A DNA stretch of 64,000 nucleotides from Geodermatophilus saharensis (GTDB taxonomy: Bacteria; Actinomycetota; Actinomycetes; Mycobacteriales; Geodermatophilaceae), in NCBI RefSeq assembly GCF_900188205.1, contig NZ_FZOH01000011.1, positions 62,001 through 126,000 of the forward strand. Direction: 5' to 3'. Both the position numbers and the translations under genes were made by a program. The notes under the pieces are model-generated. The model was not told the origin of the DNA, made no database searches, and was given only the letters and a program-made list of their open reading frames with translations. Each line of letters starts with the position of its first letter. Position 1 is the stretch's first letter. This document shows positions 48,293 through 50,280 of the stretch, one piece after another.

Positions 48293-48970
48293 TCAGGGCG
48301 ACATCGCCAGCCGCAGCAGGAACTCGACCTGCCCGCGGTCCTCGACGCGGACGAAGCCCAGGTTGGGCGCGGTGATGCCGAAGTCGGCGAAGACCACCGG
48401 CACGGCGCCGGAGACCTCCACCCCCTCGGCGGTGCGGACGACGGCGAGATCGGTCTGCACCTGACGGGTCTGCCCGCGCAGCGTGAGGTCGCCGGTCACC
48501 GGGACGGTCACCGGCGTGCCGGAGAGCTCGGGCAGGTCGACCGGCCCGCGGACGGTGAACGTCCCCGTCGGGTACGTGTCGACGTCCATGACGTTCCCGC
48601 GGAAGTAGGAGTCCCGCTGACCGATGTCGGTGCGGATGCTCGCGACGTCGACCGAGACCTCCGCCGATGCCAGGTCCCCGCCCTGGATGACCACCGAGCC
48701 GGTGACCTGGTCGGTGGTGCCGGCGACGGTGACGTTGGCGCCGTTGAGGACCTCGTCGACGCGGTAGCCGGCCGAGGAGCCCGGGACGACGGTCCACGTG
48801 CCGTCGGTCTCGGGTGCCAGCTCGACGTCGGAGGGCTGCGCCTGCACGGTCGGCGCCGCGGCGGCGTCCTCCTGCGTCGCGGCGTAGAGCAGCGGGCCGA
48901 CGCCGATCCCGAGGGCGAGGAGCGCGACGACCCCTCCGACGATCCACCAGGTGCGACGACGACGGGCCAT
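48293..48970 (-). CDS. YceI family protein, membrane-anchored
   Basis: A 225-residue protein. A membrane anchor or signal (WWIVGGVVALLALGIGVGPL, residues ~8-28) precedes a YceI lipocalin-like beta-barrel: GTWTVVPGSSAGYRVDE, SVDVASIRTDIGQRDSYFRG and FTVRGPVDLPEL, with the final FGITAPN. YceI barrels bind isoprenoid or other amphiphilic ligands. ATG 48970 has AAGGAGA 7 nt upstream. It lies between the SRP RNA and dnaX, in the same direction, with 80 bp to dnaX. Confidence 0.88.
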   Translation of the reverse strand: MARRRRTWWIVGGVVALLALGIGVGPLLYAATQEDAAAAPTVQAQPSDVELAPETDGTWTVVPGSSAGYRVDEVLNGANVTVAGTTDQVTGSVVIQGGDLASAEVSVDVASIRTDIGQRDSYFRGNVMDVDTYPTGTFTVRGPVDLPELSGTPVTVPVTGDLTLRGQTRQVQTDLAVVRTAEGVEVSGAVPVVFADFGITAPNLGFVRVEDRGQVEFLLRLAMSP

Positions 48971-49045
48971 GGCGTCTCCTTCCCTCGACGGACCGCGGAT
49001 GCTGGCCGGTCGACCTGTGAGCCGGCTGTGAGCCCGGGGGAAGAA

Positions 49046-49137
49046 GGGACCCCCCGTGCACCCGCCAGAGCCCGCTTATCCTTGCTGCCTTCCGGCCCTG
49101 GGGAGGTTCACAGGGTGACGCCACACGAGGGGTCTGC
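49046..49137 (-). ncRNA. ffs: signal recognition particle RNA (small bacterial type)
   Basis: The minus strand contains the conserved SRP core: CAGGGCCGGAAGGCAGCAAG, i.e. the GGAA tetraloop hairpin with the asymmetric A/C-rich internal loop (49082-49101). The ends pair: GACCCCTCGTG near the 5' end (49134-49124) with CACGGGGGGTC near the 3' end (49058-49048). The 5' end at 49137 is 6 nt after a TACAGT box; the 3' end is approximate. About 92 nt long. It sits near dnaX-ybaB-recR, as in other actinobacteria. Confidence 0.93.
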
Positions 49138-49142
49138 ACACC

Positions 49143-49148
49143 ACTGTA
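49143..49148 (-). promoter_or_regulatory. candidate -10 box of SRP RNA
   Basis: Minus-strand TACAGT; transcription would begin at about 49137. It lies only 15 bp from the divergent box at 49164-49169, so the two promoters overlap. Confidence 0.5.
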
Positions 49149-49163
49149 GAGGACGGCGGTCGC

Positions 49164-49169
49164 TAGGCT
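49164..49169 (+). promoter_or_regulatory. candidate -10 box of EamA leader
   Basis: TAGGCT, 8 nt before the ATG of the 14-residue leader ORF. Confidence 0.45.
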
Positions 49170-49177
49170 CCCGGGGC

Positions 49178-49222
49178 ATGACGCCCCGGCGCGCCCTCGT
49201 GCTGCCCCCGCCCCGCTCCTGA
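49178..49222 (+). CDS. putative leader peptide upstream of EamA transporter
   Basis: A 14-codon ORF, MTPRRALVLPPPRS, with ATG almost at the predicted transcription start. It contains a Leu-Val-Leu stretch and three consecutive prolines (CCC CCG CCC), a sequence known to slow ribosomes. Its stop codon is 1 nt before the 5' strand of a three-stem RNA structure. It is 101 bp upstream of the EamA gene. No homologue was checked. Confidence 0.5.
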   Translation: MTPRRALVLPPPRS

Positions 49223-49223
49223 C

Positions 49224-49320
49224 CCGGAGCACCGCGGGCTGATCCGCGCGGCCGGCACGTCCGGCCGCCACTGCGCCGTGCTCCGGACCGCCGCCCCGTC
49301 CGGAACCAGCGCCCAGGAGC
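49224..49320 (+). promoter_or_regulatory. structured leader RNA (candidate translational attenuator)
   Basis: P1: CCGGAGCAC (49224-49232) with GTGCTCCGG (49278-49286), 9 bp. P2: CGCGG (49233-49237) with CCGCG (49244-49248). P3: GGCCGG (49250-49255) with CCGGCC (49261-49266). The P1 3' strand includes GCTCC (49280-49284), which is complementary to GGAGC (49316-49320), the Shine-Dalgarno region of the EamA gene. The alternative pairings would let leader translation switch access to the ribosome-binding site. Confidence 0.55.
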
Positions 49321-49323
49321 GTC

Positions 49324-50280
49324 ATGTCCACCCCCTCCCTCTCCCTCGCCTCCCGGCGCGACTCCTCGTCGTCCCGGCGTGGCTTCGCGTTCGTCGTCCT
49401 CGCGGCCCTGTGCTGGGGGACCTCCGGCCTGTCCGGCCGGGTCGTCGCCGACCGCAGCGGCCTGTCCGCGCTCGACATCGCCTGGTACCGCCTGGCGGTC
49501 GGCGCGGTCGCCCTGTGCGCGGCCTGGGCGGTGACCGCCCGGCGCCGCGGGCCCGCCGTCCGGGTGACGCGGCCGGTGGCCGGCCGCCTGGTCCTCATCG
49601 GCGCCGGGCTGGCCGCCTACCAGCTCGCCTACTTCAGCGCCGTCGAGCGGGCCGGGGTGAGCATCGCCACGCTCGTCGCGCTCGGCCTGGCGCCGCTGCT
49701 CGTCGCCGTCGGCGGCACCCTGCTCGGCGCGGGCCGGCCGAACCGGACCACCCTCGTCGCGCTGGGCGTCGCCCTCGTCGGGCTCACCCTGCTCGTGGGC
49801 GTCTCCGCCGGCGCCGACACCGGGACGACCGTGCTGCTCGGCGCGCTGACGGCGACCGGCTCGGCGCTCGGCTACGCCGTCGTCACGCTGGCCGGCGGCG
49901 GCGTGCCGGCCGGTGTCCCGGTGACGCTGGCCGGGTTCGCCGGCGGCGCGCTGCTGCTCACCCCGGTCGTCCTCGCCGAGGGGCTGACCGTCCCGTCCGA
50001 CGGCGTCGCGCTGGCGGTGCTGCTCTACCTGGGGCTAGTGCCCAGCGCCCTGGCCTACCGGCTGTTCTTCGCCGGCGTGCGCACGGTGCCGGGCGCGGTG
50101 GCCTCGATCGTGACGCTGCTCGAGCCGCTGACGGCGACCGTGCTGGCCACGGCGTTCCTCGGCGAGCGGCTCGAGCCGGCCGCCGTCGCCGGCGGGGTGC
50201 TGCTGCTCGCCGCGGTCGCCGGGCTCTACGTGCGCGAGCTGGGCCGCCGCGCCGGGCCGGCCGCCGCGACCGGCGCGTGA
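49324..50280 (+). CDS. EamA/DMT family transporter
   Basis: A 318-residue inner-membrane protein with ten predicted helices in two EamA repeats. The first begins GFAFVVLAALCWGTSGLSGR, the second TVLLGALTATGSALGYAVVT; YLGLVPSALAYRLFF and ASIVTLLEPLTATVLA are typical of RhaT/EamA exporters. ATG 49324 has AGGAGC 4 nt upstream. Many members export amino acids or other metabolites; the leader peptide and structured RNA upstream suggest that expression responds to translation state. Confidence 0.9.
   Translation: MSTPSLSLASRRDSSSSRRGFAFVVLAALCWGTSGLSGRVVADRSGLSALDIAWYRLAVGAVALCAAWAVTARRRGPAVRVTRPVAGRLVLIGAGLAAYQLAYFSAVERAGVSIATLVALGLAPLLVAVGGTLLGAGRPNRTTLVALGVALVGLTLLVGVSAGADTGTTVLLGALTATGSALGYAVVTLAGGGVPAGVPVTLAGFAGGALLLTPVVLAEGLTVPSDGVALAVLLYLGLVPSALAYRLFFAGVRTVPGAVASIVTLLEPLTATVLATAFLGERLEPAAVAGGVLLLAAVAGLYVRELGRRAGPAAATGA

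Follow-up and report, generated by a model that had tools for sequence, protein, structure and literature searches.

Attenuators of the erm type have a four-segment layout in the RNA, and the leaders of the mgtA and mgtB genes contain consecutive proline codons. In ermC/ermCL a ribosome that stalls on a short leader open reading frame (ORF) rearranges the hairpins and exposes the Shine-Dalgarno (SD) sequence (PMC10219788). In Salmonella the mgtQ ORF of the mgtB leader is likewise short and overlaps stem 1:2, and slow translation of this ORF is expected to favor stem 2:3 and translation of the transporter (PMC8092293). Consecutive proline codons and EF-P also set the translation of the transporters encoded by Salmonella mgtA and mgtB (PMC6460261, PMC5299641). 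CutF, which precedes cutO in Rhodobacter capsulatus, has a proline-rich C-terminal stall-like motif immediately 5' of a stem-loop that shields the SD of the next gene (PMC9973294), and a ribosome that stalls on the toiL uORF of E. coli topAI frees a masked ribosome-binding site (PMC12121999).

In this report, a putative element of this kind is described upstream of an EamA-family exporter gene of Geodermatophilus saharensis, within a stretch of 64,000 nucleotides (64 kb) that was analysed as a whole and is referred to as the window. The EamA leader differs from ermC/ermCL in that it is probably translated leaderless, has a fixed PP(P) near its stop codon and a free N-terminus, and precedes an exporter. 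It differs from mgtQ, which has one conserved proline codon acting via base pairing, its own SD and acidic residues that destabilise the ribosome (PMC8092293), and from CutF, which is an exported copper-binding protein, whereas the EamA leader has 9-29 residues and no such domain (PMC9973294). The genes, phylum and RNA are other than those of mgtA and mgtB, which encode Mg2+ transporters and not EamA proteins, and toiL, which responds to several antibiotic classes, has another peptide, target and RNA (PMC12121999). Unlike the transcription attenuators of amino-acid biosynthesis, the locus shows nothing that resembles an intrinsic terminator in a simple scan of 48900-49500, confined to the window, and an intrinsic terminator was rejected for the window on that scan.

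A PP(P)-stop leader before EamA was not found described in the literature covered, with most subscription papers outside the scope of the search, and a study that reports 8 uORF candidates from 50 genomes leaves EamA unnamed in its main text (PMC11109978). The earlier note on this DNA, made from the sequence alone, had known of no element with such a layout for this gene family. What appears to be new, by the literature covered, is the probably leaderless PP(P)-stop leader, the EamA target and the wide actinobacterial range; the kind of attenuator is itself known. If the reading is correct, a control element would be common to many families of actinobacteria, among them those of a probable Streptomyces genus, and would be easily overlooked because its ORF has just 9-29 codons and no SD. 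Polyproline stalling would then have a natural reporter, and the element would offer a way to the substrate of a conserved EamA exporter and a case of a fixed peptide signal with a diverging RNA switch around it.

The leader ORF and its conservation in Geodermatophilaceae

Table 1. Features of the exporter locus and of its upstream region (window positions).
Feature	Position	Strand	Remarks
Small SRP RNA gene	49042..49137	-	Divergent from the EamA gene, outside the switch; Rfam RF00169, 69.1 bits
-10-like box TAGGCT (TAnnnT)	49164-49169	+	8 nt 5' of leader ATG
Leader ORF MTPRRALVLPPPRS-stop	49178..49222	+	14 codons; ATG 49178 to TGA 49222
PPP codons of leader	49205-49213	+	Within leader ORF
Segment 1: CCCGC 49207-49211 and GCTCC 49215-49219	49207..49219	+	Lies in the Pro-Pro-Pro-Arg-Ser codons; partner 2
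Segment 2: CCGGAGCAC 49224-49232 (P1 5' strand) and GCGGG 49234-49238	49224..49238	+	Partner 1 or 3
Segment 3: GTGCTCCGG (P1 3' strand)	49278..49286	+	Partner 2 or SD side
Segment 4: CC-A-GGAGCG with EamA SD	49313..49321	+	Complementary to segment 3; RNAalifold consensus, 41 sequences
EamA-family (PF00892) exporter	49324..50280	+	Presumed regulated gene; Pfam PF00892 E 3.3e-26

The earlier note had proposed a 14-codon leader peptide that starts beside a predicted transcription start and precedes an EamA exporter. The ORF lies where it had been placed (Table 1), the box TAGGCT adjoins it, and the downstream gene matches PF00892, which supports an EamA exporter as the target; this protein scores below the cut-offs of TIGR00950 and of the YddG model, and its best hit among solved structures (E 0.064) is to unrelated proteins. 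Transcription directed by this box would begin on the leader ATG or directly beside it. The leader is probably leaderless, with no SD of its own, because a TAnnnT box lies 6-8 nt 5' of the leader ATG in 40/41 aligned relatives, a count made with a script that favored a start with a box where several in-frame starts were present. In M. smegmatis it is enough for leaderless translation that the transcript begins with ATG or GTG (PMC4633059). A pattern designed after the window ORF had been seen (TAnnnT, 6-8 nt, then an ATG or GTG ORF of 7-35 codons with PP among its final 7 residues) has a single match on the two strands of the window, and this match is the leader.

The relatives were drawn from 26 genomes of the genus and 80 loci of named genomes, a total of 110 loci, 69 of which have the SRP anchor that was used to cut the upstream region (57 distinct). 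The leader end, with at most 6 mismatches, is present in 43 of these 57, which bears out both the leader peptide and its conservation before EamA orthologues. The aligned set consists of the 41 loci with leader, SD and gene; L022 and L024, which hold EamA fragments only, were excluded. At L022 the leader has neither start codon nor PPP left, and at L024 it still ends in PPPPRS. Leader conservation as a by-product of the adjacent SRP RNA gene was considered and rejected, as the ORF recurs at loci without SRP RNA: in 10 relatives scanned, the leader ORF is present and the fetched locus has no SRP RNA and no other Rfam match. Within the window, the only Rfam matches at gathering score are the SRP RNA and tRNAs.

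The 41 leaders end in PPPRS (35), PPPHS (3), PPPVS (1), PPPRSC (1) or SPPRS (1, in L068), so that 39 have the ending PPP[R/H/V]S-stop and 40 have PPP. Proline is kept at codons -3 and -4 in 41/41 and at -5 in 40/41, and the third base of codon -3 varies (C in 24, G in 13, A in 3, T in 1). In the ten sense codons nearest the stop, departures from the commonest codon number 31 at position 1, 46 at position 2 and 74 at position 3, and the last six codons have 8 distinct synonymous variants against 6 nonsynonymous, a modest excess over the 35% expected to be synonymous. Leader length ranges from 9 to 29 codons, all variants being in frame. The leaders at L054, L015, L069, L042, L051, L058, L221, L228 and L024 are longer (25-29 codons, MTPRPRPEARPEPARGEEDGVL type) and share this end, and the type occurs in Geodermatophilus and Blastococcus alike. 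On these comparisons, the support for the predicted leader ORF is solid; the RNA switch around it is likely.

Occurrence in other actinobacterial families

Outside Geodermatophilaceae, a micro-ORF of this kind, with PP or PPP near its stop codon, was found in 114/128 EamA relatives, where PP in the last 7 residues and the TAnnnT box were search conditions, so that their presence is uninformative and the position of PP is informative. The query for the wider surveys was L080, an EamA protein of Catellatospora, a genus whose leaders end by eye in IISPPV[R/A] (8 loci, outside the counts). It matched in 26/148 genomes of the class, including the window's own genome, in 47/61 genomes of the G541 genus, which is probably Streptomyces (the best 30 loci were fetched), in 16/22 genomes of the G647 family and in 13/51 of the G612 family. 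When 430 nt upstream were scanned (700 nt for five loci with a match starting inside the gene), a strict leader was present in 66/71 EamA loci (L129-L143, L145-L200) and was not found in L140, L145, L150, L151 and L180. An ORF is visible by eye in L145 behind a CAGACT box, and the ORF of L151 (f105) is out of frame after PPP, which fits a change in the length of the C run that is either real or a sequencing error.

A survey of the order gave EamA matches in 93/298 genomes. In families other than f1 the leader is present in 48/57 loci, which are all the listed matches minus one second copy (G095): f16 22/22, f4 4/6, f2 6/9, f13 3/3, f15 13/16 and f8 0/1. Two f15 loci, L262 and L265, are second EamA copies that lack the leader in G094 and G114, where the other copy has a leader. 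The leader is also found in 10 of 19 further f1 loci. As controls, the opposite strand gave 0/71 and 0/76 matches (0/147) and windows further upstream gave 1/142. Over loci that add up to 1.78 million strand-bases, duplicates counted, the pattern has 143 matches, and only 3 are not of leader type by pattern, one being the actual SPPRS leader of L068. None of six weaker EamA loci in the genus has a match, nor does any of the distant loci L088-L106 and L108-L110, and a single unrelated match is present in each of L086 and L107.

Proline at -4 is the only residue found in 154/154 leaders; the last proline is at -3 in 145, PPP occurs in 138, and the last residue is mostly S, A or R. Of the stall signals that the earlier note had suggested, PPP thus holds as the likely one, while the Leu and Val codons are common and not invariant. 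Codon choice alters pausing at Pro pairs (PMC8129111). The middle proline is CCT in 19/33 PPP leaders of f18, compared to 5.1% of exporter proline codons (first 250 codons), and in 0/14 leaders of f105, 0/11 of f103 and 2/40 of Geodermatophilaceae.

In a quick tree of 64 EamA proteins, the leader-bearing group and the losses as one clade are not rejected (p-AU 0.228), a result that long branches weaken. A covariance model of the Geodermatophilaceae RNA matched 12/200 genomes of the order, all of f1 (28 f1 genomes listed), and one DNA pattern run on 396 genomes of the phylum found the window's genome once and 3 matches in 2 other genomes. The element does not appear to be confined to the window gene, and recurs, as judged by these searches, across actinobacterial families.

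Four complementary RNA segments

The earlier note had described a stem P1 enclosing P2 and P3, with a P1 3' strand that could instead pair with the exporter SD. The nine perfect pairs of P1 and the complementarity of GCTCC in its 3' strand to GGAGC 49316-49320 of the SD were confirmed, and P1 and the SD are supported as rival partners. P1 has standard pairs in 97.3% of cells in the 41 sequences, and the inner stems do not share this conservation: P2-like pairing occurs in 9/41, and the inner region is shorter than 25 nt in 7/41. At the P3 position, a helix of at least 5 consecutive pairs is predicted in 31 of the 34 sequences with an inner region of at least 25 nt, a count that has no shuffle control. 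P1-P2-P3 as a fixed three-stem receptor was rejected, as the inner stems are variable and there is no Rfam match. A third partner that the earlier note does not mention is the GCTCC at the end of the ORF, which pairs with the P1 5' strand.

Consensus folds were run without a given structure, with L156 and L178 (f18) and L190 (f105) left out. The RNAalifold consensus of the 41 Geodermatophilaceae sequences combines a 1:2 hairpin that spans the leader stop with a 3:4 hairpin that includes the SD. In f18 (33 sequences) 2:3 is the sole helix, with GCCCGC in 33/33, and segment 3 is invariant in 33/33 amid variable surroundings. The f105 consensus (14 sequences) has 1:2, an SD hairpin GCTCC:GGAGC and other helices, and the f103 consensus (14 sequences) has 1:2 and inner helices.

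The covariation check proposed for P1-P3 was borne out for P1 at one pair, P2 and P3 not being the conserved part. Of the 41 sequences, 23 have A-U at this pair (33/94), 11 have G-C and 1 has G-U, and 6 leave it unpaired. The covariation of 2:3 in Geodermatophilaceae (11 cells) was reached in 0/500 shuffles, with the caveat that sequences which are related to each other can outdo the shuffles used, and the number of covarying pairs was equalled in 498/500; 3:4 has no covariation in this alignment. In f103, segment 3 matches segment 2 in 98.8% of cells with no informative change. The f103 helix just 5' of the SD (3:4) has 4 pairs changed on both sides, with 84.9% of cells paired; its 11 covarying cells over the 4 pairs were reached in 0/500 shuffles and its number of covarying pairs was equalled in 69/500.

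A swap test favors 2:3 in Geodermatophilaceae, where the own partner is better in 35/41 sequences on swaps within the clade and in 41/41 on swaps between clades, and in f18 (25/34 and 28/34). There is no clear support from this test for 2:3 in f103 (p 0.97 and 0.33) or, likewise, in f105, or for 3:4 in Geodermatophilaceae (p 0.095 and 0.98), where 1:2 pairs less strongly than combinations exchanged across clades. The conserved plan would be four mutually complementary segments, each supported in some clades only. The RNA differs by clade and yet seems to repeat the order 1 (in the Pro codons), 2 (after the stop), 3 and 4 (on the SD side).

The best fold of the window RNA (-76.8 kcal/mol) has 1:2 and the SD region paired with the leader start. 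A fold with 2:3 (-71.9 kcal/mol) is 4.9 above it and one with 1:2 and 3:4 (-65.7 kcal/mol) is 11.1 above it, the probability of 3:4 being about 0 in every state. Because both are costlier than the best fold, the case for a switch at the window locus rests on comparison and not on its own fold. Over the 41 sequences, 3:4 forms in 4 as free RNA and in 20-21 with a ribosome at -3 to the stop. In the best fold, the leader start ATGACGC 49178-49184 is paired with the complementary exporter start GCGTCAT 49319-49325. Such complementarity (at least 6/7 pairs) is found in 35/41 Geodermatophilaceae and 10/65 leaders elsewhere, and does not belong to the common plan.

By convention, a simulated ribosome was given a front 16 nt away from the P-site codon, counted from the first base of this codon, and simulations were run on 41 Geodermatophilaceae leaders and on sets of 65 and 48 leaders outside the family. 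In free RNA, segment 2 is paired with the leader at a mean fraction of 0.38, 0.69 and 0.59 in the respective sets. A ribosome whose P site is at -6 to -4 has its A site over the Pro codons, and downstream pairing of segment 2 then occurs in 36-39/41, 53-57/65 and 44/48; at -3 this drops to 8/41, 18/65 and 23/48, and from -2 on to none. Since segment 2 switches between -4 and -2, a stall on the Pro codons would favor P1 and a ribosome at the stop codon would block it. The earlier note had left the direction of the switch open, and the simulation suggests this one; in Geodermatophilaceae it fixes only the late limit, because P1 is already favored at -10 to -7 (38-41/41) and segment 2 is already paired downstream at -9 to -7 (40-41/41). 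The folding gives no clear opening of the SD by ribosome position, its pairing changing little. In Geodermatophilaceae this pairing is 0.69-1.00, with the minimum at P site -6; elsewhere it is 0.67-0.87, with the minimum once the ribosome has passed the stop. Compared to dinucleotide shuffles, downstream pairing is 0.79 versus 0.47 in Geodermatophilaceae and 0.66 versus 0.62 outside (p 0.057).

A proposed attenuator and its alternatives

The most probable reading, in our judgment, is a ribosome-operated translational attenuator upstream of the EamA exporter; our confidence in it is lowered because the window fold disfavors 3:4 and because, outside Geodermatophilaceae, the SD opens most at a ribosome position other than PPP. 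In the model that we infer for the start site, the pause at PPP, its cause and the turning-on of the exporter, the mRNA would start at the leader ATG and the leader would be read without an SD, its fixed feature being Pro-Pro(-Pro) ending two codons 5' of the stop. When the leader is read fast or is unread, 1:2 would form and segment 3 would be free to pair with segment 4, masking the SD. A ribosome held with PPP in the P and A sites would cover segment 1 and expose segment 2, allowing 2:3 to form and segment 4 to be freed. The hold would come from slow Pro-Pro bond formation, possibly with EF-P or Pro-tRNA in short supply, or from a drug. We tentatively suggest, with less confidence than in the attenuator itself, that this may be an old actinobacteria-wide sensor of polyproline stalling (of EF-P capacity or of a blocking natural product) that switches on a dedicated EamA exporter, with the RNA rebuilt in each family.

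One or more ribosome-targeting antibiotics may instead be the direct cause of the stall at PPP, with the same RNA switch inducing an exporter that removes them, as in attenuators of the erm and toiL kind. An exporter is a fitting target for such a sensor, and uORFs that sense antibiotics and expose a ribosome-binding site are known (toiL, PMC12121999). We regard this reading as rather unlikely. Drug-dependent arrest often requires a defined nascent chain, whereas the residues ahead of PPP differ among leaders (9-29 codons long) in number and sequence.

It is less likely still that the leader reports the supply of proline, slow delivery of Pro-tRNA at PPP turning the exporter on (or off). The invariant proline at -4, the rare CCT at the middle position in f18 and the control of Salmonella mgtA and mgtB translation by EF-P (PMC6460261, PMC5299641) are consistent with such a role; the fixed part has just two or three Pro codons, however, and the target is by family an exporter and not a gene for proline synthesis or uptake. 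We give an equally low standing to control of transcription, in which leader translation would keep transcription from being terminated, by Rho or otherwise, ahead of or within the exporter gene. Repression linked to toiL leads to Rho termination (PMC12121999) and the folding described above does not demonstrate masking of the SD, but the scan of 48900-49500, made in the window alone, argues against intrinsic termination, and the SD lies inside a consensus hairpin in Geodermatophilaceae and f105. A functional small peptide, with RNA pairings as by-products of G+C-rich sequence, is improbable: segment 2 pairing outside Geodermatophilaceae is scarcely above shuffles and the folding gives no SD release, but only PP-x-x-stop is fixed while the N-terminal part and the length are free, 2:3 (Geodermatophilaceae) and 3:4 (f103) covary, and segment 3 is invariant in f18.

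The putative attenuator is absent in 14 of the 57 distinct relatives: 7 of Blastococcus, 5 of Modestobacter, L072 and L074. The Blastococcus loci (L040, L041, L044, L045, L046, L048 and L052) have no leader and no segment 2 and retain the promoter box and the terminal GCGCTCC...GGAGCG, as if the part between repeated GCTCC elements had been deleted. The Modestobacter loci (L061, L064, L066, L067 and L073) have lost the leader and have the same kind of -10 box. Their exporters appear to start directly at the former leaderless ATG (MTG[R/H]TPQP...), which would be a natural bypass of the switch.
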